From NCBI GenBank assembly GCA_914767715.1, contig OU612075.1:18602001-18666000 (forward strand): DNA of 64,000 nucleotides. Direction: 5' to 3'. The translations under genes were made by a program, and so were the position numbers. Numbering within the stretch: the stretch's first letter is position 1; every line of letters starts with the position of its first letter. The notes below the pieces were generated by a model. It was not told the DNA's origin and searched no databases. It saw only the letters and a list, made by a program, of their open reading frames with translations. Positions 4,571 to 54,325 of this stretch are shown here, piece after piece. The DNA comes from Membranipora membranacea (Eukaryota; Bryozoa; Gymnolaemata; Cheilostomatida; Membraniporidae).

Positions 4571-7500
4571 TCAGGCTTGACGTGAGGACCCAGGAGCCGC
4601 TGTCTCACAAGCCTCGTTGTATGATGGTAGCTTGGCTGTTGGTAGAGCTTGCCCACCTGCAAAAAAACACAATATAAAACTATTTTAGACAGTTATGTTA
4701 GAGATCAATAGCAACAGCTGAAATCTCTCAGTACAGGAAAGAAACTAGAAATCCATATAAATGTCTTCATGTATCCTATAATTGTTTGACATATTACCGC
4801 TGATAAGTTTAATGAAGACGGCAAAATGCTTATTGATTTCCCTCAATGTTTTACTGAAGATTAAAAATACGAACGACTTGCAACAGACCACGGTCAAGTT
4901 AGATCAATCTGCCTGCATTCAGAGTTGCTCCCTCCACTGCTCATGCCGCAGCTGCACGCCGCACCCTTCACTACAATGTGACCAGTGGAGGGGGGTTACT
5001 CTGAATGCAGGCAAATGGATCAAACTTGATCTTCAACAGACCTGATCATTTCACTATTGTCCCTATCGGGCAAAATCTTTACAACTTGTCATGTGATTAC
5101 TGTTACCTTTGTTGGGAGGCGGGGCCGGGCCAACACTTTCTTCCACCAGCCTATGATGTGGAATGTTACTACTCGATGTCGTAACCACCAATCCCTGTCT
5201 ACGCACAACAGCTGCTCGCCTTTTCTTCTGTAAAGTAAAATGTGTTACAAAAAAAAGTGTGGACAATTCTAAGACAACCTCATAATGCTAATACAATAAA
5301 CATACAAAAAGAGATGTTATATGTTTATGCATGGCTAATACTTATGACATAATACTAATACTAAAAATAACTATCAATACTAATAATAACTCTATGGCTA
5401 ATACTTTCTTGAAGCCCATCGATGTTTCACTTTGCTGATGGATGAAATGACATATGAGGCACATTAGATTTTACTCAATTGATTTCACATAAAAATGCAA
5501 CTCTAGCTATCAGCCATTTCATTCTACATGACTGTGTGCAATATGATAACACAGCGTATATCCTTACTCTGTGATGATAACATCAATCAGAGCTAATGTA
5601 AATGAGACGACATTGTTCGAGATCATGTGATGGTGATGACCTTCGAAATAGATAACACGATTGCTCAAGCTCATATGTGACCTCGCTGAAATCACTACAT
5701 AACTCTATTCTATGTTTTTATAATCATGTCCTGTCACTTATCTTGGTAAGGAAGTGGCTTTCAAATTTTATAATTGGCAAAATTTATCGGATTAAACGGC
5801 TGCCTGCCACAAAAATGGCTGCCTGGCTAAACTAGGTTTTCCACAAATGGTACGAGAATCTACCATGTGTAGCTTTTATGACTTACCCTATACACATAGA
5901 AACAAGGCACAAAGAACACGCATCCTCCAAATCCTGAGTAGTAATATCCGGTGTAAGAATAAGTTGTACCTGTATAACGAGAAATAAAATCAGGATATAT
6001 CTTTGTGTTTGCAGTATTTTAAGCGCTCAAACTGTGCCAGGATAGCTGGTAGTGACATTTCATTATCAACCACTTTCCCCTCCTGCTTTTGCGGTATGTT
6101 CTTAAACTTACAGAGGGGAAAGTGATTGATAATGAAATGTCACCACCAGATATCCCGGCACAGTTTGAGCATTAAAACTATGATGATCACAAGAATTATC
6201 TTAATATATTCTTATTAACATAACCATACCAAAGTCTCGTTATTTCTAAGTATACAAACCGCCGTCGTCAATGATTGGGTCCCAGGTGTATGGGTTGAAG
6301 GTCCATGGGTCATAGTTTGTGGTGGTCTCCAGCGATGACCCCCTTGTCAGCCATTCATCTGTACGATAAAATATAAGGTTCTCAGGCTCAGAGGTGACAA
6401 AAGTAACTATTTAATACTGTATCATAGTGGAGAAGATTTTCCTGCTTAGCTCGGTTCCTGCTCTTCTAAGAGAGAAAAATCATTGATCTACAGTCATTCG
6501 TAACGACATCTGTATTGACATCACAAAACCTTGGTACAGCTTGGGGCAGCAGATCTTTGAAATTGGAGGTTTTGACATTGCCTATGCGAGAAATACCTGC
6601 CAGCGCATGACCTAAAGAGTTACAACACAGCTGATTATTGCTAAGCATTTACAAACAGCAATCAAAAAATAAAAATCACAATCAAAATACTGACTAACCA
6701 TCACAGCAGATGAGCGGACAATTCGGGTCTATAACGAAATCTGGTGTGACAGATATTTCTACACGCTTGATTTCTAGCTCATTGGTCTGCTTATCATCAC
6801 TGAAGTGGATTCTGTTTCCGATAAAGAGTCTACCGTCTACATAGGCTAGAGAACTTGGTCGGGTGATATCGCCATAGTCGACATGTTTACTGAGGGGAAC
6901 ATACATATCATTCACGTTGTCGAGCAGAAGAACGTCACCTGAAACGGTATCTGTTACTACGTACAGTCCGTTTATCTCCAAAAGTCGCTCAGCTTTCATG
7001 TGTTTGACCCATTTAGGGTCACTATGAAGAGAAGAATTACAGTGGTGTTTGTCACCGGCTTTAGCGAAAATATTATCGGTCGTAGGTTCTTCATAAGGTT
7101 TGACATTCAGTAAGCTCCCATTCTCAGCAACAACTACGAGCCTATTCTCTAGGGGATGGTAGTGGAAATCTTTGATAAGAAAGTCAGCTTGATACAGAGT
7201 TGTTACTGCTGCTGCATACCTGTCGATATTGAGGATGGCTGATTCATTAGTGCTAACTCGTGAATCAAGCACCAATATGCGTTTTTGATCTTCGACATAC
7301 TGAAGGGTACTCGGAGAACAGAATGTGGCATTCAGTAACGGGGTGTCAGTCCATTCACATGTAGACTCATGTTCAAGGGATCCATTGATACAAGTGCCTG
7401 AATATGTTGTTATATTCAGTGAAATCATATCATAAAGCCGCAAGCAACGATTACCCGTATCAGCAATGATGATCATCGGAGATTCCAACTGGGCAAGCCC

Positions 7501-7973
7501 AGAAATGTTACAGAAGCGGGCGGTGGAAAAGTCCCCTTCCTCATACCCACAACCAGCACTATTCCCGATTCGATAACTTCTGACAGTTCCTTTCGAGGAA
7601 TAATAAATAACAGCTCCCCCAACGGCAGCAATGATATCTCTGGGATTTTTGCGGTCTTCTTGAATGACTGAGATAGAGACTTCTTGGGACGAATCATTCC
7701 CGTGTATGGCCACGGCCCCAAACAGGCCAAGGCCACTGCGAATTGTAATTTTGCTGTCATCATCGGGGGCCATCCTATGAAAGTAAAAATAGTCAAAGAG
7801 TTGTTAAAAAATAATATACAACCGATAATACACTGAATGAATCCACCATATTGATCACGATAAAGGAGCTTTTTGGAGAGTAAATAATTTCAATGGAAGT
7901 AAGAGAGACGTCTTACTTACCAAACCCCGACAGCAAGGGAAGTTAATATCGCACAGAGAAATATCCGTCCCAT
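4571..7973 (-). CDS. NHL-type beta-propeller single-pass membrane protein (copy A, complete, 505 aa)
   Basis: Six exons (high to low coordinate): 7973-7921, 7774-6699, 6358-6260, 5969-5887, 5227-5107 and 4656-4571. All have GT-AG borders, and the summed length of 1518 nt is in frame. Exon 1 gives a signal peptide (MGRIFLCAILTSLAVG). Exon 2 encodes about 360 residues with an NHL-like repeat (ADTGNRCLRLYD) and several N-glycosylation sequons, so it is probably an extracellular propeller. A short stalk (DEWLTRGS) leads to one membrane span (SGFGGCVFFVPCFYVYR) at about residues 420-437. The cytoplasmic tail starts KKRRAAVVRR and ends with LPSYNEACE; LPSY is a possible WW-domain ligand. The family is not named in my knowledge and the ligand is unknown. 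The start codon is chosen because it opens the signal peptide and the exon 1 donor GTAAGT joins exon 2 in phase 2. Intron 4 carries a micro-palindrome insertion and a foldback element. Confidence 0.82.
4881..5042. repeat. 144-bp foldback element with 9-bp flanking direct repeats
   Basis: CTGCCTGCATTCAGAGT pairs with ACTCTGAATGCAGGC, and CCTCCACT pairs with AGTGGAGG. Outer arms are GGTCAAGTTAGATC and GATCAAACTTGATC. CAACAGACC lies immediately outside on both sides (4881-4889 and 5034-5042). The AATGCAGGCAAATGGA end recurs alone near 35241, and GGATCAAACTTGATC recurs next to the palindrome at 57471. Confidence 0.6.
5543..5580. mobile_element. micro-palindrome, family alpha, TSD ATGATAA
   Basis: The 24-bp element 5550-5573 (CACAGCGTATATCC... 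CTTACTCTGTG) is the 30-bp alpha palindrome with a shortened left arm. ATGATAA stands directly on both sides (5543-5549, 5574-5580). It lies in intron 4 of copy A. The homologous intron of the decayed copy C (about 15431-15465) has a single copy of the target region and no palindrome. Confidence 0.8.
6025..6170. mobile_element. foldback element, GATAGCTGGTAGTAGC family (copy 2)
   Basis: Starts GCTCAAACTGTGCC and ends GGCACAGTTTGAGC. Inner arms TTTCATTATCAACCACTTTCCCC and GGGGAAAGTG(A)TTGATAATGAAA flank a loop of about 40 nt. It lies between exons 3 and 4 of copy A. No convincing target duplication. Confidence 0.7.
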
Positions 7974-9169
7974 CTTCACAGTTCCTTTTAAACAAGTGTT
8001 GGCAGAGATTGCCAAATAACAAACAAACACGCTGTTTATCAGTCAAATCTGTCAAGTGTTGATACAGTGATGGGTTTTATGTATATCATTGATAATAATA
8101 TGGATCTGTTACAAACAATATTCAGATAAGGCTTTATAGCGTGCAGTGTCAAATACTTCTTAAAATTTTACAGTAGAATCAAATCCATCATCCATGCTGA
8201 GAATTCTTAATTTTTTAACACAAATGACTTTTTCTTTGTATTGTACACAGTGTTCTGAGTGAGTGGGAACTGGTGGGAACTCAGTTTCCGTCAAAAAATA
8301 TAGAGGGGGAACCTTTAGAAAAACAGTAACCTTTAGAAAAACAGTGTCAAGCTGTCTCTTTTGACCAGATATCAATCATACTATTACAGATCCATATTTG
8401 TGCATAATTTGATCTAGAAATTGCAAACAATTCTCAAAACAATTTTCAACCCAGAGAGTAGAGTACCCACAAAGGAATAAATCCACTTAGACCACTGATA
8501 GTACACATATGAAACACTCATTTCCGGCAGAAAAATAAATTATCTAAAATTTGGAGGTGATAGAGGAGATTCAATGGGAATACAACTCCAATTTCAATTC
8601 CATATAGCTTTTATACATCGATCAGAACCATAGACGATGCGCAATGATTATAATATATATCGTTATTTCAAGCTTGCTTGGTTAGGAAAGAGACACTGCA
8701 ATGAACTTTATGATACGATTCTGATTCCCATGCAGTAACTGTGGTTCGCCACTTAGAAGAAATCCAAACTAAACAGGACTATAAATTAAAAATTGCTCAC
8801 AGTCTTTCTATGTGAAGTCTTATTGAGCAAACCAACAAGATGCTGTGGTTTGATCAAGGAGTCTCACTCCTTTTTTTGATTATCAGAAAGTGAAATTTTA
8901 AGTTTGATATTTGTTTATTCATTAGTATTAGTTGAAAAATCGCATATATAGGGGTTTTGTCTCTTGGTGGTTCTATACTAGGATGGCTGGTATTCATCTA
9001 TCTTTGCTCTACGAGCAAGATGAGGAGTTTGCTGTTATTTCTATGTTTATTACGATACCACGTTTTCAATATCTCATTTACCGCATTCCACTCTACACAT
9101 CTGTATATTCCGTCGCTTTTAGATCTGTAGGTTAGTGTGTACGAGGTAAGCGAGGTAGGCTTACTCCTT
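7974..9169. other. intergenic stretch upstream of copy A; no gene seen
   Basis: Presumed promoter side of copy A, but no TATA or other box close enough to call. There is a direct repeat of AACCTTTAGAAAAACAGT at about 8310-8345. Reading frames here are short and unrelated to anything recognised. Confidence 0.4.
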
Positions 9170-9212
9170 ATCGAACCAGGGAGGGTGGGAGACTCACCCT
9201 CCCTGAACAAAC
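9170..9212. mobile_element. micro-palindrome, family gamma, decayed TSD
   Basis: The 29-bp element 9177-9205 starts CAGGGAGGGTGGG and ends CACCCTCCCTG (11-bp perfect arms). Flanks ATCGAAC and AACAAAC agree at 5 of 7 positions. The same family, with a perfect TSD, is at 12362-12396. Confidence 0.5.
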
Positions 9213-9653: not shown

Positions 9654-9888
9654 ATCGCTTCTCGGACTATTGGCTAAGATCAAAGTGTCATGGCTAATGG
9701 CTGATTAGTGCCTGTTTCAGTTTCTGGCAGCTTGCTGCACACTCACGATTAGGAGGTCCACCATGGCCTCACCTCTAGGATGCATTCTAGCTTGCTAGGA
9801 TGTATCACACTCTCAGTATGAGGACTCCGGGCAACTTGCGTCCCTCTTTAGGTGCAGCCCACCCTCTGTTTTGTCATAAACAGGGGTT
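9654..9888 (+). mobile_element. U2-headed SINE-like unit 1
   Basis: The first 35 bases (ATCGCTTCTCGG, then ACTATTGGCTAAGATC up to AAAGTGT at 9688) match the conserved 5' end of U2 snRNA almost base for base. From there the sequence departs from U2: the branch-point recognition region and Sm site do not follow. The remaining 200 bp are unique to this repeat and end TTTTGTCATAAACAGGG. It is not a functional U2 gene. It is directly followed by a second unit, making a head-to-tail dimer. Confidence 0.75.
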
Positions 9889-10125
9889 ATCTCTTCTCGG
9901 CCTATTGGCTAAGATCAAAGTGTAACCGCCAATGGCGGATTAGTACCTGTTATAAGTTTCTGGCAGCTTGCTGCACACTTACGATTAGGAGGTCCACCAT
10001 GGCCTCACGTCCTCTAGGATGCATTCTAGTTTACTAGGATGTATCACACTCTCAGTACGAGGACCTCGGGCAACTTGCGCCCCTGTTTAGGGGCAGCCCA
10101 CCCTCTGTTTTGTCATAAACAGGGA
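9889..10125 (+). mobile_element. U2-headed SINE-like unit 2
   Basis: Starts ATCTCTTCTCGGCC-TATTGGCTAAGATC, again U2-like for about 35 bases, and ends GTCATAAACAGGG at about 10125. It is about 235 bp, the same length as unit 1 with moderate divergence. The Tx1-like LINE fragment starts within a few tens of bases downstream. Confidence 0.75.
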
Positions 10126-10139
10126 CCGTTATCAAACAG

Positions 10140-12354: not shown

Positions 12355-12403
12355 TATGCATCAGGGAGGGTGGGGGATATACCTCCACCCCCCCTGTATG
12401 CAT
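12355..12403. mobile_element. micro-palindrome, family gamma, TSD TATGCAT
   Basis: The 35-bp element 12362-12396 starts CAGGGAGGGTGGGGGAT and ends CCTCCACCCCCCCTG, an inverted repeat with two mismatches in 15. TATGCAT lies on both sides (12355-12361, 12397-12403). Copy A has a single TATGCAT at about 5321-5330 in the corresponding flank. Confidence 0.75.
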
Positions 12404-24240: not shown

Positions 24241-27200
24241 ATGGAGTTCACTGAAAAAGTAGGAAAGATCATCACCAATGGCTGGGCTGCTGCTGGTCTG
24301 GCAATGGGTGAGTCATAACAATTAATTATTACTGTTTTTATTTCTCTTTCATGCGCATCATAGTGGAAATGGTAGAAACTGTGTTGTATCAAGTCAAAGT
24401 AATAGTAATGATCAAACAAATTTGCAATTAGACCTCTTGCTCCCAATTATGTTTGTAACAAACTTTTCAATCACAAGAACGAGAGATGATTTTAGAATGC
24501 GAAGGTGTCACGGTGTGGAAGGTGACACGGTGTAGGATGTGTCACATAGCCAGAGGTGTCACGTAGTCGGAAGTGTCATGGCATTGGATGTGTCATGTTG
24601 TCGCTGAATTATTGCTAATTTGTTCATGGTAGTTATATAAGTCAATATTTCATATTATCCAGTGACCTGTCTTGACAAGAGTTGTAAGATTGGCCGGCCA
24701 CTCTGTTGTGCACACAGATAAAATTTAAAGTACGATTGAGACTATGCTTTTGGTCATCTTATCTCCAACTGTAATGTTAGTCCTGCATCATTGTTGTGTT
24801 CTTGTTATTGACCTTGTTCATCACCCTGCTTAGTCCCATATTATAGCTACTTAATTTGAACCACAGACTTATGTCTATGGTTCAAACTAAGTAAATATAA
24901 TATGGGACTAAGCAGGGTTAATTAACAATGTCGATAACAACAACACTACTCCACGATGATGCAGCGCTAAGGTGGTAGTTCACAGATGCTAATGTGTCAC
25001 TTGCTGGGATTACCGTGACTATGATACCTATTGGCCTCCGTAGGGATAATACATTGGTCTAGGGATTACCACAACCCACAGTATATCACAGAGTAAGGAT
25101 ATATCCTTACTCTGTGAGTATATTGTGGTATATGAATACATGTTATATTGTGAGTAACATGACGTTGATTGTTGTTGTTTTCAGGAAGTCGTCTGGGTTT
25201 ATTTAATGGCTTGGCTGATTTAGCTCAGACAAAAGAAAATGCTGTAACAACACAGCAGATCGCTGACTCAATGAACATGAAAGAAAGGTAGGCCTACTCA
25301 TAATTCTGGAAATTATATATTTTAGTCCTTTGAAAATTTCCCTGTCATCAATACTCAAATTAAAGTCGGCGTCAACAGACTTTTTTTTCTGGTTCTTTTG
25401 ATTCACTTACAGCAGCATGATGATTGGTTCTCAATTCAATAAAGTGGTCTCCATTTTCAGATTTGCTGAAATTTTCATTGGTTTTCTTGGAACATGACAG
25501 CAGCTATTTAGTATTCACATCACAGAGTAGGATATATATCACAGAGTAAGGATATATCCTTACTCTGTGATATATATTCTTACTCAGTGATGTACATACA
25601 ACAACAACTAAACTTTTTGTCTAATGATGGACTGATTTTTGGCAGCTATCCAAAGTTTATTGAGCACACTTTTTGTCCACTGAAACTGTGACAATCTTCT
25701 GGAAATATTTCTGAGATAAAGTTGTTTGTATGAGGCGACAGTGAGGTTTTACATAAAACAGGCAGTAGAAGATGTGTATGTTTTGCATTAGTTGTAGCAA
25801 TGGCAAAAAAAACTTGTTGCTGGGTGTCATGCGCTATTCTTGTCAACAAATTAGTAATGTGACGATCATCAGCAACCCTATTCTCAGAAAAGTTAGCTAA
25901 CCAAATAAGCCAACATTTCTGCTGACGTCATGCATTCACTTTTCATTGATAGCTAAGTGCATGACATACGTTATTAACTAAGACGCTTTTACTCCTAACT
26001 AAGATGGACTTTGTTTAGAGATTATAAGATCTAGGCGACCCAGGGGAAAGTGGTGGATAATGGAATACTACTACCGGCTATCCCGGCGGCACAGTTTGAG
26101 TGCTTTGATTAGGTAGGGTATGTTTGACCCAATCAAGGGCATAGATAGTTTAGGGGTAGGCAACGAGACTGATAGTACTGTCTTAGTCTTGTTTCAATGT
26201 ATTTTAAATGTCATAGATATTTTATGATATTACTTCGGAAGTAATAGACCAGGTCTATATAGTCCTAGAAAACAATACAGACAAACATTACTGGTGTTAT
26301 TTTTTCCCTATCATGAGAAGAAATCAGACTATCAATCATTGTTTACAAAATCCTAGCAACAAGATGAGATGTTGGACAAATTAAATGTGGATGAATCTCT
26401 CTCTCATGCAAACTGCATAGCAGATGACATAAATCTGACAATTGTGTCCGAAACATTAATAGGTCACCGACAGTCTAGGGATACATTCAGACCACTCAGT
26501 CACTAAAGTATCCTCTTTTTTTTTCTGTCCCTGCAACTCCCCTCAATGGTTGTACTCTTCTTGGTGGTACAAGCACAATGAGCTTCCTACCTCTGCAATC
26601 AGTCCACTCATCCCTGAGACACATAATCAGGAGCCAATAATAAAGGGAAAATACCAACTAGTTTGAATTGTCAGTGCCGTCAGTAAGGAGTAGCTCTTGG
26701 TTTTATGTATCTAATGATTTTATAAGTAGCATGACTAATGATGGTCTTCGATGTGTCTAGCAGTTCTATAGAAATCTATGTCCTGGCCATATTCAACATG
26801 TTACAATTTTCTTTTCTATTCGCAAACATTTATTATGCATATACATTATATTATATATATATTCTTACTTCAACTCAGTGTTTTTAAGTGTAGACAGAAT
26901 ATGAATCAATCCAAGTCTAGTCAATCACATAGAATACATCATGATAATTTTACTTGAACAAGATGCAGATGCAATTAAAGGAATGCATTGGTGAAGTTTC
27001 AGGATTTTTGGGTTTATTGCAGCATTTTCGCAAAAGACAGCTAGTATCATCCCAGCTCATATGTAGGTAGATCACTTTTCAAGTTAACGAGTTTACATTT
27101 CCCTGTAAAGACGGAAGTTTTTTATGCCATGCATATGGACATAAAAACCAGTACATTTTATCAAGCCGACTCTTCTTCATTCTATGAGGAAGTTCAATAT

Positions 27201-30200
27201 AAAGAAAAGCTCATAACACAACATGTCAATGAGTCTTATTAGTAATCCTTTCAGTTTCCGTGTTTCACCATTCCATAGACTCTGTTTACGCTTTGTAAAC
27301 CAGCCGACCATGTTGTGTTTTCACCAACAATTTGTCACACAGCTCGCTTTCTGCTCTTTCCGACTGTGGAATAGGCACCCGCGGAATTTCTTACTTGAAT
27401 TGAATTGAATTTGAATTGAACTTACTTGAATTGAATTGATTGACTTATTATATAGGCTGACCTGTAAAATATAAATTATCACGTCATGATTTTCATTGAA
27501 ATCCCTGTTCTGTTACACAATAAAACATAATATTGAAAGCAGTCTTATTGATCATCGATGACTTCTGACATTAATCAGGTCAAGATGTAATAATTGCTCA
27601 GACCAGGATGTTTGAACCTCCCAGATCAGACTGGGTTGTTTATTGACAACTTGTTCAACACTTTGTAGTTGTCCTCCCCTTAATTCTGCAGTCAAAGAAG
27701 TTGCAACTCCCAAAAGTGTCCATATTGCCAAGCCATGTGAATACTGTACTGTACAAGAGAAAAATAATGACTTGATTTAGCCTGGGCAGGCTAGGCTGCC
27801 CAGGCTAAACTTGATTGACATTGCAACAGCTCTGATGCAGATAGAACTGCATGGCTTTTGCAGATTTCGAATGCTGCATTATCATAATTGCCTGGTGTGC
27901 AGCTCTACTAGTAGCCCATACTTGAGTCAAGAAATAATATTGTTCTTCAAAAATACCTGCTACATTCCATTGTCTTGGCCAGGCAATTTTGTTTCTTTGA
28001 TAAGCACCAGTGGCTATAGGTAGTAGCTGTAAGTATCATTCCAGTGTCATATAAAAGAAGAAAGAGTCCTAGCTAGTAGCAACTTGACTACTAGAGTATT
28101 TTGTAGAGGTAGACTAGGCAGGTTGTTTAGCTGAACGTTTCCCAGTAGAAGGCCCAAAGGACACAAAAATAACAGTATTATATCTCAGATACAGATAATC
28201 GGAGTGATATATAGCATAGGAACACATATATGTGACACAAAATCAAGCTAATGTCACAGCACAGCTAACAAGAGGGTAATGGCAGTCAAGAGTTCAGATT
28301 GTGAGGCGGAAAAGAGGTGTTGTCATCATAAGCCAGTAATAAAGAACCACATAACCCTAAATCATAGGCAATGAGTGAAATCCAAGGCACAAACATGTGT
28401 AGAACAAATATTCAACATCACTTTTTGTGTTTACTAATTCATCAGGTGGCAGTTACATTGCATTTAAAAGATTAAAATTGAAATTTTCAGTAATATAAAA
28501 TATCACATTAAAGCTAAGATTGGAAGCAAAATCGGGCAGTGACAACATATCTTATTTACAAGAGGAAACAATGAAGATCTTAGAAGAATTCAGAAGGGGT
28601 TTTTAGACCCAAGTATTCAACAGCAACAAACTGAGTCATAATTTAAATTAAGTCAATTTTTAAAGCAAATATTCAAGATTTACCACCTCATCTTTAGCAC
28701 ATCATTACGATGTGACTTCCATTTCATAGGCTCTTTTCATTGTGGTAAATCAAATCTACAGTCTTTCTTACCACTGTTATGTCATTTTGAAGTGTGTAAA
28801 TCCTTATCCAGTAAGAGAAATGTCATTGCATCAAGAAATGACATTTCAAAAAAATTCAGCTCTTTGATCTTTATACGTAGTCTGAGACCGTTGCCAACCC
28901 CTACCCTTGACCCAATCATTATCATAGTCATGCTGCATCCATGTTATTCATTCTATATAAGTTTGTTTCTATGTTGTCTTCGTAGGTATATCAGGGAGTG
29001 GATCAAAAGTATGGTAGCCGCTGAGATCATAGATCACATCCAGATAGACGGGGTGGACAGATACTGGCTGGCTACTCCCAAAGTGGCTACGCTTGTCAAT
29101 AGAGGGAGCAATCTATGTCCAGTCAATGGTTCTGAGCTCTTTATTGGTGCTGTCTCTAATTATCCGGCTGTGGAGAAATGCTTTGCTGCCGAGGGACCTA
29201 GAGGTTAGTGTGACTATAGTTATCATAGCAGAAGTTCTTAAATGGGGTATGGGGGCGGATGGGTCTCAATTAAAATCATATTAGGGGATTGTGAGACTTC
29301 GAGAATGCACAATTTGCTGTTGTTAGAGTTGTGGGTTTGAGTCCCACTTGGGGAGCTTTCAAGGTTGATTGTTCCAGTCCCCAGCACCCTCGGGTGTACA
29401 CTTCTCCATAGTTCAGTATTGGCCGCTATGAGGGGAGATTTGCTTTTAAACCATGATCAGTGATCAAAATGGAAGGTCATCAAATTTTCAAAAACATTTA
29501 TACCAATGATAGATTGTGATTTTAATACTATGAGGTTGGGAATTGATATAACAATGACGTCATGGCACTGACGGCTAAAACTGTTTTGGTAATTTATTCC
29601 GAACAAAAATGGTGACAGATTCATAAACAAACTGCTAAATTAGTCTAGATCCTGGTTATATTGGACCATCCTTGACCCAAATTGCAAAAAATATAGAATA
29701 TCTGGGAAATAATAACTAAAACAACAGGGATGTGTCCTTGTTAATAATCTTTGTATAATGTCTTTGTCGATTCAACTCTGACCGGTAGGCCTATCTGTTA
29801 CAAGTCCCACCATCCAGTATATCAACTGTGGAGTGACGCCATATAGTTATTATAGAGTATATAAAAACTCTAGGAGTGACACAAATCTGCATTATACTTG
29901 ATAAATTGGAGCCAAAAGTTGTCAAAATTTAATTCATTTATTGAGAAATGTTATACTGCTATGCAAATAAAAGCCAATTATTTCTGGATATCAATAAAAA
30001 ATCTGGTATCTGTGGTATTGATGGCCTTGTCCCGCAGCCACTTCAGCGTTACAAGGCTACCCCAAAAACAGAAAAAGTAGAATCATGTCAAGGCTATGGT
30101 ATTATACTAGGCCTAGTCCTAGTGATGGAAGCTGGACTCTCAGTATATGAGTTCTGAGGAAGACTTTAATACAGGTAATCCGCCCCCCCCCCCTCCTTGA

Positions 30201-33200: not shown

Positions 33201-35810
33201 CAGATCTTTCAAATGTCAAATATCAAATACTAGATGCCTGCGATATCCCTGATGACCTGGTTAACAAGTTTGATCTTGTTATGTTGATCGATGTGTTCCA
33301 CGATGTAGCCTACCCTGATAAGCTTACACAAGGAATGTATAAACTACTGTCACCAGGAGGGAAGGTGCTCATCTCTGACATAGATATGTGTGGTGATATC
33401 AAACAGGACTTTGAAAGAGGTAAGATTTTACATCACAAAATGCTTTGTCTAAATCCTGGTTCTCATTATCTCGAATCACAGCACAATGAAGTGAAGTGTT
33501 AGGATATAGGTGAACTTGAAGGTAGAGGCTTTATCTGCTTTCCTGTGGGGCTCTAATATATACGTAAGCTACCCGCGTGTTATAAGCTTAAGTTAGATGC
33601 GCTTGTTTGTGTAAACCAGGCTTTACAGAATTTCAGCCAATAGAATTCCAACCACAAGATTCTTTCCTGTTGATGCGCATACCCTCTCAAACTGTTCTGG
33701 TCTTATTTTATCATTAGAACCTAAATTTTTGTGTGAGTGGTCTGAGCAAGGTGTCACCCCCCCCCCCCCCATAGTCCTGGGTACTCCAACTAAGTCAACC
33801 TCTGCTCTATTTGCTAGCTAATACACCCATGGAGCGACCACCCATTCTTTATTCATTACAATTGTTGCTACTTGAGTCCAATGGTCTATTTGACATTTTC
33901 ATGTTGAATCCATCAATGCCCTCCACAACACACAGTGATGGTTAAGATAGATGTGCACAAAATATCTAATGAAGAAAGCTGTGACTGGATCCTCTCATTT
34001 GTCTTGTTTTGCTCAAACTCTGCCAGGGTTGTTGGTAGTGGTATTTCATGTCAACACACTCGGTCAGATAGTAGTTGATAGTAGAATGCCACTACCAACA
34101 ACATAGGCAGAGTTTGAGTATTTAAATCAGTTTTACTGATGCACTTCTATTAACAATCATATCTCGTGAAGTATGGTATCGTTTGGAAGTACGTAGCGTA
34201 GCGGTAACAATTCACATTGTGATGTGATAACTTATCGGACCTTGCGTAGAATCTACGCCCTTGTAAATTTGTAACTAGCAGTGAGCCAGTTTGGATAAGG
34301 TATTTCCCTACCTATGTAAATCTTTTGTTGCTTTGTGTTTGGTTGGAGTTCATGATATTGTTTCTCCAAAATGAGTTACCAATGAACCTGAATGATTCTG
34401 GTCAGTGGATGGTGTAAAAATGTGTTCTGGGACAAGTTAGAAGCCACTACCATTAGGTCTCGGTGCTCAGGTGCTGGTATCAGTTAAATCTGGGAATAAG
34501 TGGGCACTCAATCTATCTTACTGTCATGGCGACCTCTGAAATTACCTGAAACTATTGGTGCAACTGACAGCTTATTATCTTAGACTAGTAAGCAGAACAT
34601 AGTCTCTAATACATCTGCTTGTGCCACCAGTTTTCATAGCTTGCTGCTGCTCTATTCTTGAACTCCTACCAAGGTTGACCAAACTGTGTCGAGATCGGCA
34701 TTTCATTATCAACCACATTCCACTTGGGTGGGGAAAGTGGTTGGTAATGAAATGCTACTACCAGCTATCCCCACACTAACCAAAGAGCCAGGTTTGTTCA
34801 AGTATCCTTGATGAGACTACAGTTAGACTAGAAGTATGCTATTGTGTTTGGCCATATAACTGCTAAGGTTACAAAGGATGCACATCTTGTGGCTAACTAA
34901 GGCAAAAAATGAATAAATTAAATCAGGATTAGTGGGGCAATAACTGGTGGTGTCGGAGGTCAATGACACGATGATGGTTTAACTGGTTGTTGTGTTAGTT
35001 TGCTGGTTGGCTGGGTTTTCTTACCCATTAGCTTTTTATTGTACCACAACAAAGAATGTTATTATCAGAAGATATATTCACAGATTAAATGATATATTAT
35101 CAGAGACTATAGATATCTATAGTCTCTGATATTATACGATATTATAATAATCAACTGGGTCAGGTTATCATATATCAAGTTCAATCCTGCCTTCATTCCA
35201 GTTACTTACTTCCACTGATCAATGGTGGGAGCACCTCCTAATGCAGGCAAATGGACCAAACTTGGTCAATATCCAGAAGAGCCGCTCGGCATTACACAAG
35301 TATACTACTTGAAGAATTTGAAGGTTAAATACAGTACATCTAGCAGTATGAATATACTTCCTCACTGTTCGACATCTTATAGACTCCTATCGGTCCATAG
35401 ATGCTTTATGTCTGGTTCTCAGAGCTAAGTAGATCAGGTTTGATCCACTTAACCCGCATTCTGCCTGTTTCCATTCTACTGGTGAGCCTTTGCGCCTGCG
35501 ACTCGAACTACACAATAAGGCAAATCAGTGCATACTTGATCTAAGGATCATATAGAGATAGGACTTGTTAGTTGGTAAATTTTAACATCTCATCCTGATT
35601 TATTTTGTAGACCCGGGATCATCTGTGTTTTATTACTCGGTGAGCACACTGTATTGTATGCCTACGTCTCTATACTACCCCGATGGTGCTGGGTTGGGGG
35701 CATGCGCTGGCCCCACAAAGATTGAGAAGATATTGAGAGAGGGTGGATTCAGGAATGTGAGGACTACCTGCCGAGATGGTGCTTCTTTATTTCTCTGCAG
35801 TAAAGACTGA
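24241..35810 (+). CDS. SAM-dependent methyltransferase, Rv2258c-like (gene 1, 355 aa)
   Basis: Seven exons: 24241-24307, 25185-25287, 28986-29203, 30822-30944, 32151-32291, 33204-33419 and 35611-35810. Total 1068 nt; stop TGA at 35808-35810. The first ~110 residues hold a winged-helix module (SRLGLFNGLADL, then QIADSMNMKERYIREW and GVDRYWL), the hallmark of the Rv2258c-type family. The Rossmann domain has motif I VLEVGCGAAGPTR (residues 176-188), the acidic ribose-binding Asp203 in TASDLSEN, then DLVMLIDVFHDVAYP and GGKVLISDIDM. A C-terminal lid follows (YSVSTLYCMPTSLYYPDGAG). Length is normal for the family. The reaction should be methyl transfer from SAM; the substrate is not predictable. 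It is probably cytosolic, as no signal peptide is present. Large introns contain foldbacks and micro-palindromes. First of three tandem paralogues. Confidence 0.9.
24791..24945. repeat. inverted repeat in intron 1 of methyltransferase gene 1
   Basis: ACCCTGCTTAGTCCCATATTAT pairs with ATAATATGGGACTAAGCAGGGT (24823-24918). Inner arms TTTGAACCA(C)AGAC and GTCTATGGTTCAAA, and outer arms GTTGTGTT...GTTATTGAC and GTCGATAACAACAAC, extend it. Clear foldback; no certain target duplication. Confidence 0.6.
25080..25123. mobile_element. micro-palindrome, family alpha, TSD AGTATAT
   Basis: A perfect 30-bp palindrome (CACAGAGTAAGGATA and its exact complement) lies at 25087-25116. AGTATAT is duplicated exactly on both sides, and the next bases outside differ, so the duplication is exactly 7 bp. 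Confidence 0.85.
25521..25589. mobile_element. nested pair of family alpha micro-palindromes
   Basis: A perfect 30-bp alpha palindrome (25540-25569) is flanked by ATATATAT on both sides. The pair sits inside a decayed alpha copy whose left half is CACAGAGTAGGATATAT (from 25521) and right half ATTCTTACTCAGTG (to 25589). A younger copy landed at the AT-rich centre of an older one. Confidence 0.7.
26044..26103. repeat. half foldback, GATAGCTGGTAGTAGC family (copy 3)
   Basis: GGAAAGTGGTGGATAATGGA through CTACTACCGGCTATCCC to GGCACAGTTTGAG corresponds to one arm only of the elements at 6025 and 63240. Intron 2 of methyltransferase gene 1. Confidence 0.55.
27395..27450. repeat. GAATT-type microsatellite
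   Basis: Irregular runs of TTGAATTGAATTGAAT with point changes, in intron 2 of methyltransferase gene 1. The rest of this 3.7-kb intron outside the listed elements shows nothing recognisable. Confidence 0.6.
27770..27815. mobile_element. micro-palindrome, family epsilon, TSD ACTTGAT
   Basis: 32-bp inverted repeat at 27777-27808: TTAGCCTGGGCAG, then GCTAGG, then CTGCCCAGGCTAA. ACTTGAT is duplicated on both sides (8 bp if the following T is counted). A longer relative is at 54263-54318. Confidence 0.8.
29285..29360 (+). repeat. tRNA-like segment (possible SINE head or tRNA relic)
   Basis: GTGGG-TTTGAGT-CCCAC at 29331-29347 is a perfect T-arm and contains a good B-box-like GGTTTGAGTCCC. No matching acceptor stem or D-arm can be folded upstream, so it is not a functional tRNA gene. 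It lies just after exon 3 of methyltransferase gene 1. Confidence 0.35.
31793..31872. repeat. 80-bp palindromic hairpin in intron 4 of gene 1
   Basis: GAACTGTTGTATGAATC pairs with GATTCATACAATAGTTC, and TTGTATACAATAATAAT with ATTATTGTATACGAA. Outer bases AATTAAAATC/GATTTTAATT also pair. No target duplication recognised. Confidence 0.6.
34011..34118. repeat. foldback element, GATAGCTGGTAGTAGC family (copy 4)
   Basis: GCTCAAACTCTGCC at the left pairs with GGCAGAGTTTGAG at the right. GTTGTTGGTAGTGG pairs with CCACTACCAACAAC. Diverged in the loop. Intron 6 of methyltransferase gene 1. Confidence 0.6.
34677..34782. repeat. foldback element, GATAGCTGGTAGTAGC family (copy 5)
   Basis: GGCATTTCATTATCAACCAC pairs with GTGGTTGGTAATGAAATGC, and CTACTACCAGCTATCCCC is the conserved family arm. 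Outer arms are eroded. Intron 6 of gene 1. Confidence 0.6.
35094..35135. mobile_element. micro-palindrome, family beta, TSD ATATTAT
   Basis: A perfect 28-bp palindrome (CAGAGACTATAGAT and its complement) at 35101-35128, with ATATTAT on both sides. Bases further out differ, so the duplication is exactly 7 bp. Second copy at 38113-38141. Confidence 0.88.
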
Positions 35811-37540: not shown

Positions 37541-38607
37541 TCAACAGCCTCGCTCTCCGATCCGGCGGCTAATGCCGCGCTGAACAATTGATCGTATCTT
37601 GTTGTATGACGTCAACTGGCGGCGAGCGGTGAACTTTCGTAACTGCATGCGAGCGCATGCATTATGGCATGCTGATACATGCAGTATGGCATGCGGGAAA
37701 CTGTAACATGTTCTATCGAGCAAGCTGCATGTGAAAAACCGATACATATACGCGCCAGACGGCAAACTTAATAAAGATGATCATGCCTACCTTAGGCTTG
37801 ATTCTAAATAGATAAATGAGTCCTTGTTCCGCGTTGCCGTGCATCAACCGATGTGCTATTGCTGAAGTCAATGATTGTAAGTTTGGATCTGAGGCTATAA
37901 TGAACTTGACCGTGTTATTGCATGCTGCTGTTTCAATGCAGGTACATGTAGTTATGCATGCAATACATGTTAAATAATAATGTTAAATGTACAATGCGCA
38001 TGCGCCAGATGCAAAACTCTGATTACATACACTAATGGTTTTTGCTTTCACTAGAGCGTCGCTAGAGGTCGCAATTGATTGACCAATGATATCTGATCAT
38101 TAGTGGTGCCAGCAGAGACTATAGATAATCTATAGTCTCTGGTGCCAGCTCTCAAATTAGCCCTAGATAATAGAATCATGTCCTGTTACAATATCGGCAT
38201 ATTGATCCCCACCCCAATTATAAATCATTATATAGACATACCGTTCGCTTACATCGTTAAGTTGAGGTGATGTAAGTCGAGAAATGACTAGACAATTTTT
38301 AGCACTTTGCTCCTCTTGAAATAGTGAAATAGTGAAAGAAACCACAGGTCAAGCTTTTGAGGTTGCGAGAAGCCATTTGATCACCATTCACAAAGACCTT
38401 AAAGCCCCAAAGTGTGTATGATTCACACTAGATTAAATGATGATAATAAATTGGCATTATTTGGTCTTAGAGCTTGGCATTATAACATTTACACATACTC
38501 TTCTTCAGCAAGTCCAGTTTCCAAGATAGCATAGACTTGAGTGCCCAATCAGCCTATGTATTATAATCTGAATAAATTTATTTGAAATCATTCCATTCTC
38601 TTTACAG
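37541..38607 (+). promoter_or_regulatory. putative promoter and leader region of methyltransferase gene 2
   Basis: A CpG-richer patch (37545-37760) contains TGACGTCA (CRE-like) and clustered GCATGC. TGCGCATGCGCC at 37995-38006 is very close to an NRF1 site. CCAAT occurs near 38080. Exon 1 of gene 2 begins after a TCTTTACAG acceptor (first base 38608), so a non-coding leader exon must lie upstream, consistent with a promoter here. The exact start is not determinable. Confidence 0.35.
38106..38148. mobile_element. micro-palindrome, family beta, TSD GTGCCAG
   Basis: 29 bp at 38113-38141: CAGAGACTATAGA, then TAA, then TCTATAGTCTCTG. GTGCCAG flanks both sides. Adjacent bases also agree by chance, so up to 10 bp match; palindrome symmetry sets the duplication at 7. 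Confidence 0.82.
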
Positions 38608-41600: not shown

Positions 41601-44600
41601 TTTATTTTCATGATGGGACATTGCAGAGGATCATACTAAAAACCTGTTTCAGATTTTCCAATCAAATGGGTCAAAATTTTAGCCAGCAGCTTGCGCAAAT
41701 CGGCCACCCAGCTTCAAACTACAATACCGACAGAATTGTATGTATTGTATTTCTTGTCATTTCAGAGTTATCCTCTCATAGTAGAAAGAGACGACAAACT
41801 AGAGATAGAAATCTGTTGCTCATGTTAGTTATTTTAAGTTTCACTTACTACCATTAATTACCATCTAGGTATATCTGCCCATTCACTCAGTATTTATAAG
41901 TGAGTGTTTTAAAACATACATTATATCTTGCAGGTCTAAAAAATGTTGAGTTTGCTGTTCTCGACGCCTGCGAAGCAGTAAATCCAGAGTTGAAGAATAA
42001 GTTTGACTTGGTGATGTTGTTTGATGTGTTTCATGATGTCGCCTACCCAAATAAAATGATCAGTGTGGTACATGAGATGCTGAGAGATGGTGGGAAGTTC
42101 CTCATTCTCGATGTACCGACACACGGCAGTCTCACGGAGAATATAAAACACGCAGAAGGTATGTACATTCCAGAAAAAGTCCAATTCTGTATGGGCAGTA
42201 GCCAGTTTTATGAAAAATCATAGTAGAAGGTTGGTTGGTGCATCCCATGATGCATGCTAAGACATATTGTAGGAACTTAGTCCAATCCAACACTCGGTGT
42301 TCTGAGACGTGTGGCAGGTGCTGTATGGGACATGTCTTACAGCACTCAAGAACAATGTTTTTTATGGGTTTATGCTGTATCACAATGCTCTTTTGTATTT
42401 AAGAACAATGCTGTAGAGGCCTTGAGCGCTGTAAGACATGTCCTGCCAGCAATCATTTTAGTGCCCATTCAGAAATGATTAAATTTTGTGGTGTCAAGTC
42501 AGCATTCCCACCTTCATATACCTTTGTTGATCTGGGATGTCATTCAAGTTTTCAATTTTAAAGCAAATTACCACTATCTCTTCGCTCAAGATTATCACTC
42601 ATTTGGAGTTGCAATTAGAAAAAACCTTGTTCTCAAATCATTCACTCAGAAAGATTTGGAAACGAGACCCCTAGCAACCTGCTCACTCGGTGAGCGAGCA
42701 ATCAGAAAGTGATATTTTTTTTAGTGTCAAAGCGACAGTCCTACTAGGTCATGTTTGGTATGGTTTTCAAGATCTCAGGCTAAAAAGTCACTAGGGCATA
42801 TGAAAGAAAACAGCCTGTGAACCTAATTGCAGTAAAACTGCTGCAAGGTCTGAAAATTAGGATCATAGTGGATCATAGTGATTTATTGCCTCTCCCTGAC
42901 CACTATGGCCACTATGATCCACTATGGTTCTTGCTAAATTAATAATAATTAAAAAAAAACTAATTGCTATTTTCTACAATTTACATTGTTTTATTATTTT
43001 TATTTGCCCTATGAACTCACAATATTTGATTTACTGTGGTGATATATCCACTAATAGGAAAGACCCCCCTGTGTCCCAGTAGGGAATGTTTCTAGCTTGT
43101 CAGGGACTGACTTTTGTCAAAAATAGTTGTTACCACGGTGCAACAGGTGGTGACTCAGATTTGCTGCAGCCTTCATTGAGATGAGAAGATTTGAAAGATA
43201 CTTTTGCAGCCAAAAAACCGAATTTTGAAATGTAAATAAATGTCTTCTATGACTGAAATATAATATTGATGCTACTATACAAACATCAATGCAGACCATA
43301 GACCTACTAATAATAAACCTAGACAGGTGACAGATATAGAGCTTATACAGTGAGCAGTGAGGCCTATAATAACTGGAATTCCCCAATGACACAACGATAC
43401 TGTGTTGTGCACAGCGCATGCTGCAATGAATGGTTTTACTATATGAGCGTGACTGATTATTAGCTATAATGGCATTTTTCTCATAGAGATATCGTAGACC
43501 GATGCCTACAAGTTAATTTTATCTGAAAGGTGATGTACCAAGCAACGCCATAGTCTCTGAATATTTTCTTTAGCTTAAATATTGAATGAGATACAACCAT
43601 TAGAAGTCGGCAATATCTGTAAACGTTGATACATTATAGCAAGGAGCAACAGTGAAGATAAAAATGTGTCTTGTATTGGTTGTAATAATAAATGAGAAGT
43701 CTTATTCTTACTATGCAACGGAACATCCAGAAGTACCACTAGAAGTACGAGTTGCGTACCTTATATCATGATATACATAGATAGACCAGTTACTGATGCT
43801 GAAATATTACCAATCTATTGAGTTTAGATCGGATGTTTTCATTTTTCTCTGATGTTATCTTCTGGGTTTCGTAATGAACTCGTATCATTATGTATCGGTG
43901 GATAAGGGATCTGATTGTTGAAGTGGAATGCACAGCACATTTCATAAATCCATGCAAATTTCCTAAAAGAATATGGTTGAGGACTCTGTTTCGGGTTTTG
44001 ATAAATATGTTTGTGTCAACACCATTGCATGTTATATAATTGCTCGCTCACTACGAAGAGCTTCTTTGTGTTTGGAGAAAGTACAACAAGCCCGCCCCTA
44101 TTCTTGACGGACACCAGTGTAGTATCATCATTCGGGTCGTTAGTGTCTGTATCTATAAGTGAATCTCTTCAGTCTGAACATGTCTAAGATACCTATCATG
44201 TTACGTTGTACTCTCTCCTTCTCAAATCTGCGTATGTGTTGCTGCAATGTCTTTATTCGCCTCCTTTGTTTAGGAACTTTGGCTTCAGGAGTTGTGTTCT
44301 TTTGTCCACGCCCCTCCTGCGGCGCGTCGCTACTCAGTATTAAGGGTATATCTGGAACTACAGGTTCTGCTGCTTCAGCAGGAACTGTATCTGCTTGCAC
44401 AGTATGTAAATCCTCACTAGTCTCTGCGCTGGAACTCGGAGGGGGGGGGGTTTGCAGCGTCTCTGCTTAACACTCTACTTTTTTGGGTTGTGGGGGTCGT
44501 AGATACGCAGGATACTCCGGAAACATAGTAGGCACTGCATTCGGGTAGAGCATAGCCCGTCTCCCTGGAAGGTTAGGAGGCACTCTGTATGCACCCTTTC

Positions 44601-46244
44601 CAAAATGCTTGCTGCATAGAACAGAGTTTGTGCTCGGTTTCCAATCTTTATGGGACACTGCTTCGATCCATTTGTCACGGCGTTCCTGCTGAGTCGGAAA
44701 ACGATGGAAGGTGAGGCTTGCATTCTTAATTGGTGTGTTGCTACAGCCAAAAGCACAGCAGCAGTGTCGACTACTTTTACTGGCCTGTAAAATTGAGAAA
44801 CTCATAAACATGACATCAATCTTTCTCCTACTTTGCGAAAGTGAAAAAAGAGCATAATGTCGCGCGTGTCATTGCCACCTTTACCTGACAGTATTGAAAA
44901 GTAGAGCATACCATACCATGGAACTGAAACATATTAAAACACAAGTATAGTTATGAATCTTATCTTACCGATTGCGATGTTGATGCGATGTCAGGTGTGC
45001 AAGAAATCCACTGAGCAACTGGACAGTTTAGTCTCAATAAGGCAAAGCCCACCAATGAAGAGTATGCAAAAATTAAGCTAATCCTACAGCGATAACTTTC
45101 AAGATCATGCTACTTATGGGGACGTGTCACAAACCCCTTGAGCTACAATACAGATGGACACAGCATGTGCAAGGTTGACCAAGGTTATAGCTATTTTTAG
45201 CTAGCCATGCTTTGAGTCATCAACTGATTGCAGCAAACCCACATGGTAAGGCCTGTGTCTTTCAGAACGCATAAACAAATATTTTCACGCAACAGTCAGT
45301 CATTGAGTCATGATATTTCCAACTTCTAATGGACGTAACTCACTCAATAGTTGAGTCAGATACAAAATTCAAAGACTCACAGCTGGCTTGGTCCATCACA
45401 TTTCACATAAAATTAACTTGCTTGCATAATTTCTCGATGAATCTGTGAGAAAAATGCTATTTCCTTGCTGCAATGCTTAAATAATGTATCACTGTTTACA
45501 GATATTGCTGGCTTCTAATGGTCGTATCTCATTCAATATTTGAGCTAGAGAAAAAATTAAGAGACTATGACGTTGCTTGTTACATCACCCTCCAGATAAA
45601 ATTAACTTGTAGGCATCAGTCTTCGATATCTCTATGAGAAAAATGACATTATAGCTAATAATCAGTCATGGTCATATAGTAAAACCATTCATTGCAGCGC
45701 TCACTGTGCACAACACAGTAACGTTATGTCATTGGGGAATTCCGGTTATTATAGGCCTCACTTCAGCTGAGCAGGTCACCTGTCTAGGTTTATTATTAGT
45801 AGGTCTATGATGCAGACTAAACGCATATATTCTGACTTCATCTTCTAGTATTGTTGTGACCAACCAGGTCAAAAACCTGCCCTTTCAGATCAAAATAAAC
45901 AACCCAGGATGGCATTATGTGGTGTGGTCCAGGTCATCATTCATATATATTATACATATTATTCTCATAATGATACAGAGATGCACTTTTCATAACAGCC
46001 AAAAGATGTAGGTTTTCCGATTTCTCTAACATCTTTTTTTATATTTTTAGATCCAGAACGTATTGCGTACTATTACACAGTCAGCATGTTATACTGTGTT
46101 CCTACATCTTTGTACTTCCCTGGTGGTGCTGGTTTAGGGGCATGCGCTGGAGCACCCCAAATTCGGAAGCTGTTGGAGGATGGAGGATTTAAAGTTGAGC
46201 GACTTGATAATGATTACGGACTATGCCTAATGTGTACAAAATAG
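38672..46244 (+). CDS. SAM-dependent methyltransferase, Rv2258c-like (gene 2, 366 aa)
   Basis: Seven coding exons: 38672-38747, 39223-39325, 39869-40110, 40451-40570, 41395-41535, 41934-42158 and 46051-46244. They have the same phases as gene 1; total 1101 nt, stop TAG. The winged-helix part reads SRLGLFRGLADLSQ, LADRLDMKERYVREW and EDRFWITPYRLPAL. Motif I is VLEIGCGAGHPSK, followed by VASDLSED, DLVMLFDVFHDVAYP and GGKFLILDVPT. The C-terminal lid is YTVSMLYCVPTSLYFPGGAG. All expected residues are present. A 5' leader intron is implied by the acceptor before 38608. The last intron (3.9 kb) contains a P-type transposon and a dispersed repeat. It is a paralogue of gene 1, with a longer third exon; a different substrate or expression is possible but not shown. 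Confidence 0.9.
42328..42443. repeat. inverted repeat in last intron of gene 2
   Basis: GGACATGTCTTACAGC at 42328 pairs with GCTGTAAGACATGTCC ending 42443. AAGAACAATGCTGTA/AAGAACAATG direct repeats lie between. No target duplication seen. Confidence 0.5.
42725..43035 (+). repeat. dispersed ~280-bp repeat, copy 2 (no minisatellite)
   Basis: Parallels 19517-19796 from AAGCGACAGTCCTACTAGG to TGAACTCACAATATTTGAT. Where copy 1 enters the 15-bp array, this copy has a single degenerate unit-like TTTACTGTGGTGATAT and then unrelated sequence. Confidence 0.7.
43289..45817. mobile_element. P-superfamily DNA transposon (2513 bp), long TIRs, TSD ATGCAGAC
   Basis: Element 43297-45809 begins CATAGACCTACTAATAATAA and ends with the reverse complement. 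Imperfect inverted arms extend about 350 bp inward (to about 43650 and from about 45483). ATGCAGAC is duplicated exactly outside (43289-43296, 45810-45817). An 8-bp duplication, CA...TG ends and an internal THAP-domain frame together indicate the P superfamily. The right arm carries an additional diverged repeat (about 45300-45460). The RNase H-like transposase core is absent, so the copy is non-autonomous. It lies in the last intron of methyltransferase gene 2. Confidence 0.82.
44140..44811 (-). pseudogene. THAP-only fragment of a P-type transposase
   Basis: One frame of about 223 codons, interrupted by a single TAA at 44467-44469. The first part holds a complete THAP DNA-binding domain: CCAFGC, FHRFP, KWIEAV, then CSKHF and the diagnostic AVPTMFP. 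After a Pro-rich linker encoded by a C10 run, the second part is basic and helical (KQRRRIKTLQQHIRRFEKER), possibly a coiled coil, and then stops. Catalytic domains are missing. A TTTTACAG acceptor just before ASKSSRHCC suggests that the real start is in an upstream exon. The layout (THAP plus short helix) resembles the truncated KP repressor of Drosophila P elements; a repressor role is inference. It would need splicing around or readthrough of the TAA. Confidence 0.65.
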
Positions 46245-46499: not shown

Positions 46500-46580
46500 T
46501 GGTGTTAGGCAGATATATATGTATATATATCGGCCTAACTGCTGGTGTTAGGCAGATATATATGTATATATATGTATAAC
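46500..46580 (+). repeat. two tandem ~50-bp units with hairpin and TA-rich tail
   Basis: GCCTAACTGCTGGTGTTAGGC followed by AGATATATATGTATATATAT occurs twice in a row. Each unit folds as GCCTAAC/GTTAGGC. It lies just downstream of methyltransferase gene 2. Confidence 0.7.
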
Positions 46581-48626: not shown

Positions 48627-48670
48627 ATCAAATCAATGAACTAAACCTAGGTTTAGTTCATTGATCAAAT
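48627..48670. mobile_element. micro-palindrome, family delta, inside a coding exon, TSD ATCAAAT
   Basis: A perfect 30-bp palindrome (CAATGAACTAAACCT and its complement) at 48634-48663, with ATCAAAT duplicated exactly on both sides. Removing palindrome and one repeat (37 bp) restores an exon of 117 nt and the reading DGYQILHDFL, aligned with DNYPILHEFL of gene 2. The insertion shifts the frame and brings a stop. Confidence 0.93.
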
Positions 48671-53765: not shown

Positions 53766-54255
53766 AAAATGCATTTCTGTTAGTTAATCAAAACAAATCA
53801 ATTTTTCTAATTAAAATATCAATATTTACAATAAAGTTGTACATTATTGCAACAAACCTGAAGCTTCGTTCAAAATAAACTGTATTCAGAACTATCACTT
53901 CCAGCTATGGCTGTAGGCTCGTTGGTCTGAACTTGTGGCCTTTGGTATCTACACTTCAAATCATATCAGCAAGCATCATCCTCTTGGCGTGCCTTACTAC
54001 GGACCGACGATTATCTTTACCTCTGACGCCATCTTCTGAAACAGCACCATAAACCAGATATTATCTCCCCCTGGTGAGAAGGTCAAGGTCGGTCGGGAAT
54101 ATGGTAAATAGTGCAAGACGGCAGCAGCGCTTTGTGTTTCCCCTTTTACCATTCAACTCATTCGGAGCTACAAAAATATGTACTCAAGTCAATTACAATA
54201 AGGTGGTGGTGAGAACAGTAACAAATAATAGAATTCAAAGTATCTAGTGATACTA

Positions 54256-54325
54256 CCACAGATTAGCCTGGGCCCCTCCCTCCCCACCCACGCACCCCTG
54301 ACAGCCTGCCCAGGCTAACCACATA
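54256..54325. mobile_element. foldback, family epsilon (long form), TSD CCACA(G/T)A
   Basis: Element 54263-54318 starts TTAGCCTGGGC and ends GCCCAGGCTAA, with a C-rich spacer of about 34 bp. Flanks CCACAGA and CCACATA match at 6 of 7. Same termini as 27777-27808, which lacks the spacer. Confidence 0.7.

Follow-up and report, generated by a model that had tools for sequence, protein, structure and literature searches.

What process leaves a tiny palindrome between two identical copies of seven letters, in one place after another and with palindromes of unrelated sequence? This question is raised by a 64,000-bp stretch of the genome of the bryozoan Membranipora membranacea (assembly GCA_914767715.1, contig OU612075.1, forward strand, positions 18,602,001 to 18,666,000; hereafter the window), in which an initial annotation had pointed to at least seven palindromes of 24 to 35 bp with identical 7-bp flanks and had proposed one mechanism acting on many sequences. 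Our analyses suggest that the palindromes are very probably repaired excision sites, or scars, of cut-and-paste transposons of the P superfamily, the 7-bp flanks being target-site duplications (TSDs). The proposal of one mechanism is thereby supported, each palindrome family being read as the two tips of a transposon of its own; if the palindromes are scars, their size, their CA...TG ends and the 7-bp repeat are constant because of P-type cutting.

All seven palindromes, read directly in the letters, lie where they had been placed and have exact 7-bp flanks; our scans recovered five of them, and those at 12362 and 5550 were recovered separately. Scars of the alpha family lie at 5550-5573 (5543..5580 with flanks; TSD ATGATAA on either side), a lopsided copy that reads on the reverse strand as a 17-nucleotide (nt) tip, CACAGAGTAAGGATATA, then CG and a 5-nt tip, and at 25087-25116 (25080..25123 with flanks; 30 bp; TSD AGTATAT), which like the other palindromes carries no strand assignment. 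Two beta scars, at 35101-35128 (35094..35135 with flanks; 28 bp; TSD ATATTAT) and 38113-38141 (38106..38148 with flanks; 29 bp, 17 + 14 with a 2-bp overlap; TSD GTGCCAG), and one delta scar, at 48634-48663 (48627..48670 with flanks; 30 bp, 15 + 15; TSD ATCAAAT), have the same layout. The 35-bp gamma palindrome at 12362-12396 (12355..12403 with flanks; TSD TATGCAT) may be read as 17 + 1 + 17, the 17 being presumed here, as no intact gamma element was seen; a 29-bp relative of it that had been overlooked lies at 9177-9205 (9170..9212 with flanks), with decayed flanks (ATCGAAC/AACAAAC) that agree at five of seven positions. A further alpha scar, at 25540-25569, is nested within an older alpha copy (25521..25589). 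Its AT-repeat flanks leave the duplication ambiguous, as had been observed, but once the boundary is fixed the flank fits 4, 6 or 8 bp and never 7.

The epsilon palindrome at 27777-27808 (27770..27815 with flanks; 32 bp; TSD ACTTGAT) has a 7-bp duplication, but it ends in TT...AA and not in the CA...TG of the P elements seen in this genome; its membership of the class is doubtful, and we do not claim it. Elsewhere in the genome, a 126-bp element (L145:6916-7041; tip TTAGCCTG) has 7-bp flanks, ATATAAG, and its tip begins much like that of epsilon, which may group with TTAGCC elements of this kind and not with P scars. Another family, zeta (tip CAAGGAGTT), was seen inside an alpha copy (L020:133-159, flanks CTCAGAG/CACAGAG) and at L136:627-651, where the TSD is GTTTGAG.

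Do the flanks exceed what chance would give? Palindromes were scanned in 310,730 bases that include the 64,000 of the window, with alpha seed sites masked in the strict scan. Among the 99 palindromes of the strict scan, six had exact flanks at 7 bp (four in the window and two outside) versus 0.2 in shifted controls, a peak at the length that had been foreseen; at 5, 6, 8 and 9 bp there were 1, 2, 1 and 1 exact flanks versus 1.6, 0.8, 0 and 0, and the 9-bp match is site 38113 with its boundary shifted. Under looser criteria the same bases yielded ten matches at 7 bp versus 0.4 (six in the window, one of which, at 46504, is a tandem-repeat artefact, and four outside). The peak was less exclusive in that scan, with seven matches at 5 bp and three at 6 bp (0.8 expected for each; sites uninspected), and longer flanks gave two at 8, two at 9 and one at 10 bp versus none in controls.

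The families themselves allow a larger comparison. In the whole genome (339 Mb, 18 contigs), exact matches number 3,161 for the alpha tip, 1,804 for the beta tip and 1,410 for the delta tip, and the same letters reversed gave 0, 2 and 0. For alpha, 49 distinct copies were sampled (two from the window and 47 from contig 1), each entered on an exact 15-base tip with a partner tip within 62 bp; 28 had exact flanks at 7 bp and nine others matched at 6/7, versus an average of 0.84 exact flanks at 7 bp, and a maximum of 4, when flanks were re-paired in 500 shuffles. Exact alpha flanks of 6 and of 8 bp came solely from the AT-repeat copy at 25540, one copy fits 5 bp and one 10 bp, and two copies (L053 and L054) have flanks in common and represent a single event that was duplicated. 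Beta flanks, in 16 copies fetched from 29 close pairs among the first 100 matches listed, were exact at 7 bp in 13 cases and agreed at 6/7 in the remaining three. Eleven of 12 compact delta copies (L089-L100) were exact at 7 bp and the other matched at 6/7, L090 and L091 again being one duplicated event. Eight further delta places comprised two longer copies with exact flanks (206 and 826 bp), a 617-bp composite at 5/7, three complex places at 2, 3 and 6 of 7, two of which split into smaller scars at 6 or 7 of 7, and two single-tip places (L107 and L108) with exact flanks; 12 of 18 additional single delta tips had a flank of at least 6/7 (L117 repeats L116). Across 70 exact TSDs, taken on both strands, the pattern is symmetric and RTANTAY-like: A or G, T, an A-rich position, then the mirror image ending in A followed by T or C, with T2 and A6 each at 0.89. 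A chance origin of the flanks is ruled out by the re-paired and the shifted controls.

How would a palindrome come to lie inside the duplication? The available parts of two studies (PMC10983969, for the fly enzyme, and PMC2895639) describe an unusual cut by P transposase, after which 17 nt of the element remain at the donor site as a 3' extension. In the sequence of events that we propose, a transposon would insert and duplicate 7 bp of its target (8 bp in other P families of this genome), and at excision its transposase would cut one strand at the edge of the element and the other 17 nt inside, so that each side of the gap would retain the duplication together with a 17-nt 3' tail of the element's tip. 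The two tails would have the same letters in opposite orientation and, once joined, would form a palindrome of about 24 to 35 bp between the duplications. Where the tip ends in a self-complementary run, such as the TATA of alpha and beta, the tails might anneal and give the same 30-bp product again and again; where it has no such end, as in delta, the join would vary and might carry filler copied from the tip, as in polymerase-theta-like end joining.

The lengths of the palindrome arms bear on this proposal. They were measured in 89 copies (39 alpha, 19 beta and 31 delta) that had been filtered at a flank of at least 6/7 and so provide no second proof of the flank; an arm was counted to its first mismatch, so that point mutations shorten some, and arms under the seed length could occur on the partner side only. 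Of 178 arms in all families, 65 are 17 nt long. Beta arms reach 17 in 21 of 38 cases and exceed it in none; alpha arms reach it in 43 of 78, with a single arm of 18, that of the window's site at 5550, which is readable as 17 plus a chance base (17 + CG + 5). Delta arms measure 15 in 33 of 62 cases and 16 in eight, with one each at 17, 18 and 20; the 20-nt arm reads as 17 + 15, and each of the three arms longer than 17 in the whole set is compatible with 17 nt followed by a fortuitous base or overlap. As identical palindromes may not have arisen independently, the tally was repeated with each distinct join entered once: the 19 beta copies hold nine joins, whose 18 arms never exceed 17 and reach it in 10 cases, and alpha yields 22 distinct sequences, many of them point variants, with 17 of 44 arms at 17 and one above. 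In beta and alpha, the retained tip of at most 17 nt and the 7-bp TSD, which recurs in longer elements with beta (L109) and alpha (L010-L012) tips, are those of a P-type scar.

The joins point in the same direction. The 17-mers of alpha and beta both end in TATA, and the delta tip has no self-complementary end. The commonest alpha length is 30 bp (24 of 39), and the commonest beta lengths are 30 bp (6 of 19) and 28 bp (5 of 19), the values expected from annealing at TATA (2×17−4) and at ATAT, respectively. Delta shows 21 distinct joins in 31 copies, ranging from 20 to 61 bp. Some scars carry fillers, and in eight of ten hand-picked cases the stretch of tip or flank copied in the filler is longer than that in at least 98.9% of its shuffled versions, the exceptions being the theta filler (0.107) and a 3-nt filler (0.679); one of the eight copied-filler cases, L101, is without a matching duplication.

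Short copies with intact tips might also be produced if templated gap repair of P elements were interrupted, leaving internal deletions and very short non-autonomous copies. Deleted copies do exist, among them an element of the window (43297-45809), alpha copies of 0.5-0.7 kb and beta copies of 1.25-1.8 kb. Interrupted copying, however, predicts many tip lengths, whereas beta arms end at 17, and two-ended alpha and beta copies measure either 22-52 bp or more than 500 bp, in a sample that represents intermediate sizes poorly, since close or clearly spaced pairs were chosen and 160 bp were read around single tips; delta copies of 48-206 bp do occur. We consider an origin by internal deletion unlikely.

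Excision scars of P type call for P-type parents, and beta has one. A 4.5-kb element with beta tips (L109) is flanked by a 7-bp TSD, GTTAGAC, and its pieces, scanned apart and not as one read-through frame, match the THAP domain (PF05485, E 9.6e-10), TNP-like_RNaseH_N (PF21787) twice (7.6e-22 and 4.6e-11) and TNP-like_RNaseH_C (PF21789, 1.7e-9). A comparison with protein structures gave a match of one piece to the P transposase of Drosophila (6p5a, 7.8e-7) and no PDB chain for the C-terminal piece; one further scanned piece matched no family. With its transposase domains, terminal inverted repeats (TIRs) and 7-bp TSD, beta belongs to the P superfamily. Shorter beta copies of 1.25-1.8 kb (L085-L088) have the 7-bp TSD, exact in L086-L088 and at 6/7 in L085. 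The four alpha copies of 0.5-0.7 kb (L009-L012) have the tip CACAGAGTAAGGATA and 7-bp TSDs, exact in L010, L011 and L012 and at 6/7 in L009; an alpha TIR variant, GGATATACAG, found in L009, L023, L051 and L056, is the one whose 17-mer the scars carry. Alpha, delta, gamma and zeta probably work like P elements; P transposase itself is tied to beta only.

Several tips start with CAGAG or CAGGG, which the ends of hAT transposons resemble, and footprints of hAT elements, or miniature inverted-repeat transposable elements with CAGRG-like tips, might therefore be considered. hAT elements duplicate 8 bp, and the alpha, beta and delta duplications are 7 bp; moreover, hAT footprints retain few or no tip bases, and for beta the P domains of the parent element contradict such an origin. 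We regard it as extremely improbable.

P elements with 7-bp duplications and others with 8-bp duplications coexist in this genome. The RNase H domain of P transposase has 134 matches genome-wide, some of which are two pieces of one copy. Ten P loci of 7.5 kb each were examined, and in four of them convincing TIRs and TSDs enclose the domain match, all with 8-bp TSDs: 4.9-kb elements with the tip CATAGACCTACTAATAATAAACC (L145 and L148) and elements with the tip CATAGAGTTAT (L146 and L153). A fifth locus, L147, gave one weak 7-bp candidate with a TCAGT tip, and the remaining loci gave none. Within the window, the internally deleted P-superfamily element at 43297..45809 (reverse strand; 2,513 bp) has CATAGACCTACTAATAATAAACC tips, an 8-bp TSD (ATGCAGAC) and inverted ends of about 340 bp that are 88% alike; its main pieces are 93-96% identical to L145 and L148, which enclose P-transposase matches, and it contains, on the reverse strand at 44467..44868, an open frame with a THAP domain (PF05485, E 5.5e-19). 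A near-identity phage search with this frame gave nothing, as expected. A separate 1,248-bp element (L132:240-1487) has the tip CATACTTGCCAAG and an 8-bp TSD, CACAGTGG, and its tip resembles CATACCTGTCAAC, the tip of zebrafish Pdre2. If 8-bp parents, such as the CATAGACCTACTAAT family, leave scars as well, their flanks should measure eight. In the 310,730 bases, CATAGA[CG] tips occur on two short palindromes only, whose flanks agree at 8 bp (8/8 and 6/8) and at 0/7 when seven are compared; few as two cases are, they fit the prediction for 8-bp parents with CATAGA tips, such as the four P elements above, although an intact element with tips exactly like theirs was not seen.

Alpha tips exceed an exact subterminal word of the element by 3,161 to 361 (about 9:1) and beta tips by 1,804 to 159 (about 11:1), ratios that overstate the difference, since mutation removes more copies of the subterminal words, which are the longer ones. 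A resident element yields two tips and two subterminal words, and therefore most tips are unattached to a resident with intact subterminal words. The delta word gave four matches against three reversed, which makes intact delta copies uncountable. When 20 single alpha tips were fetched, 11 had a recognisable partner. Extrapolated from the sampled copies, thousands of scars would be present in the genome.

This excess of tips would fit palindromes that are themselves mobile, as tip-only units of 30 bp moved in trans by a P-like transposase and multiplied as units. One identical 30-bp alpha unit does make up 13 of 39 copies, with different duplications, and a 26-bp delta unit makes up 7 of 31. 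Were this so, few self-propagating DNA units in any animal would be smaller, and scars would have turned into elements. Several observations argue otherwise: joins vary (nine in 19 beta copies, 21 in 31 delta copies), beta arms end at 17, and the units are without subterminal sequence, which P mobility would need. Identical palindromes also recur in fly excision (14 isolates, whose independence is unchecked, in the available part of PMC2895639). We therefore consider self-mobility improbable, if slightly less so than an origin by internal deletion. Of the two possibilities raised in the initial annotation, excision scars gain support, while ultra-small mobile elements are unnecessary as an explanation and are made less likely by the limit of 17 nt on alpha and beta arms, by the variety of joins and by the fillers copied from tips.

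A number of observations weigh against an origin as P-type excision scars. Among the alpha copies, 17 of 49 are without an exact flank of 3-12 bp (eight of them matching at 6/7), and five of the 18 additional delta tips yield no 6/7 flank. Nine of the 20 single alpha tips have no clear partner tip within 62 bp; of these, two continue into the long element, one repeats another event in decayed form, one can be read as a scar of 22 bp and five fit none of these descriptions. The delta arms peak at the seed length of 15 and just 3 of 62 reach 17 or more, so that the limit is hardly tested in this family, and the arms of the 13 alpha copies (of 39) with an identical 30-bp sequence are not independent evidence if that sequence multiplied as a unit. 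Seven identical copies share the 26-bp delta join, whose overlap is at most 1 bp, a recurrence that long microhomology does not explain. Both ends were obtained for four long alpha copies, and three of these (L010-L012) have the variant GGATAAGC, without TATA. Elements that combine a transposase with alpha, delta, gamma, zeta or epsilon tips were not found: these tips form a TIR pair at none of the ten 7.5-kb P loci, and among the 361 alpha subterminal places the first 100 hold no transposase-sized pair, no subterminal search having been made for gamma and zeta. Finally, in the available part of PMC2895639, an equally common class of fly repair products (14 isolates) uses a longer imperfect microhomology, loses most of the tips and would yield no palindrome.

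Other features of the window lie outside this argument. Longer palindromes (71-111 bp) of other sequence, at 3655-3765, 24823-24918, 31784-31875 and 57471-57541, had no 7-bp flanks in the scan and are probably other hairpin-like elements. Two tandem units of 239 bp, about 90% similar, occupy 9654-10124 and begin with ATCGCTTCTCGGACTATTGGCTAAGATCAA, which presumably resembles the start of U2 small nuclear RNA; they lie just upstream of open frames that include one with a weak, sub-threshold match to zf-RVT, and perhaps represent a retroelement with a U2-derived leader. Neither these units nor the remainder of the window matched Rfam at the gathering score. A 15-bp unit, TATACCGGGGCAGTG, is repeated about 45 times at 19794-20470, with several frames open. 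Two related frames, at 28642-29208 and 47867-48397, have a weak Rv2258c-like winged-helix match just under the curated cut-off, and the frames of the window also include one with C2H2 zinc fingers. The alpha palindrome was not found in viral contigs.

Provided that P-type excision does cut 17 nt within the element, each scar would document one natural excision event and the manner of its closure in the germ line. With many scars in one genome, past jumps could be counted, dated and compared with the resident copies, and the scars would reveal end-joining habits, such as microhomology and copied fillers, in an animal beyond the reach of an assay. The palindromes also hold a warning for annotation, since annotators might class scar tips as miniature elements, although these tips have probably not been mobile by themselves.

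The mechanism by which such scars form is already known, and the statement that the palindromes belong to no standard annotation class is thus half right: the available part of PMC2895639 shows that excision of the Drosophila P element leaves the same structure. In a literature search, no title described a genome-scale natural collection of P scars. Among known P-superfamily members, Galileo of Drosophila has, in the available parts of PMC4168063 and PMC2775673, mostly 7-bp TSDs with the symmetric consensus GTANTAC, like the TSDs described here, and likewise long inverted ends; the word footprint is absent from the main text of either paper. Zebrafish Pdre2/THAP9, as described in the available part of PMC10983969, has a P-superfamily transposase, as has the beta parent, but in its 8-bp TSD and its tip it has more in common with the CATAGA families of Membranipora, which also duplicate 8 bp, than with beta; in a fly-cell assay, sites excised by the zebrafish enzyme carried larger deletions. 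The closest counterpart is the repaired P site of Drosophila melanogaster, which in the available part of PMC2895639 consists of an 8-bp TSD, up to 17 nt of tip, a microhomology or an insert, up to 17 nt of tip and the 8-bp TSD again. Its palindromic examples have the same anatomy as the window palindromes, one 30-bp palindrome, joined at a self-complementary AT, was obtained in 14 isolates, and copied fillers are described there as possibly marking alternative end joining. The fly scars come from one marked site with an 8-bp TSD in Rad51-deficient laboratory flies, whereas those of Membranipora lie at natural sites, with 7-bp TSDs, several unrelated tips and 1,410 to 3,161 tip matches per family.

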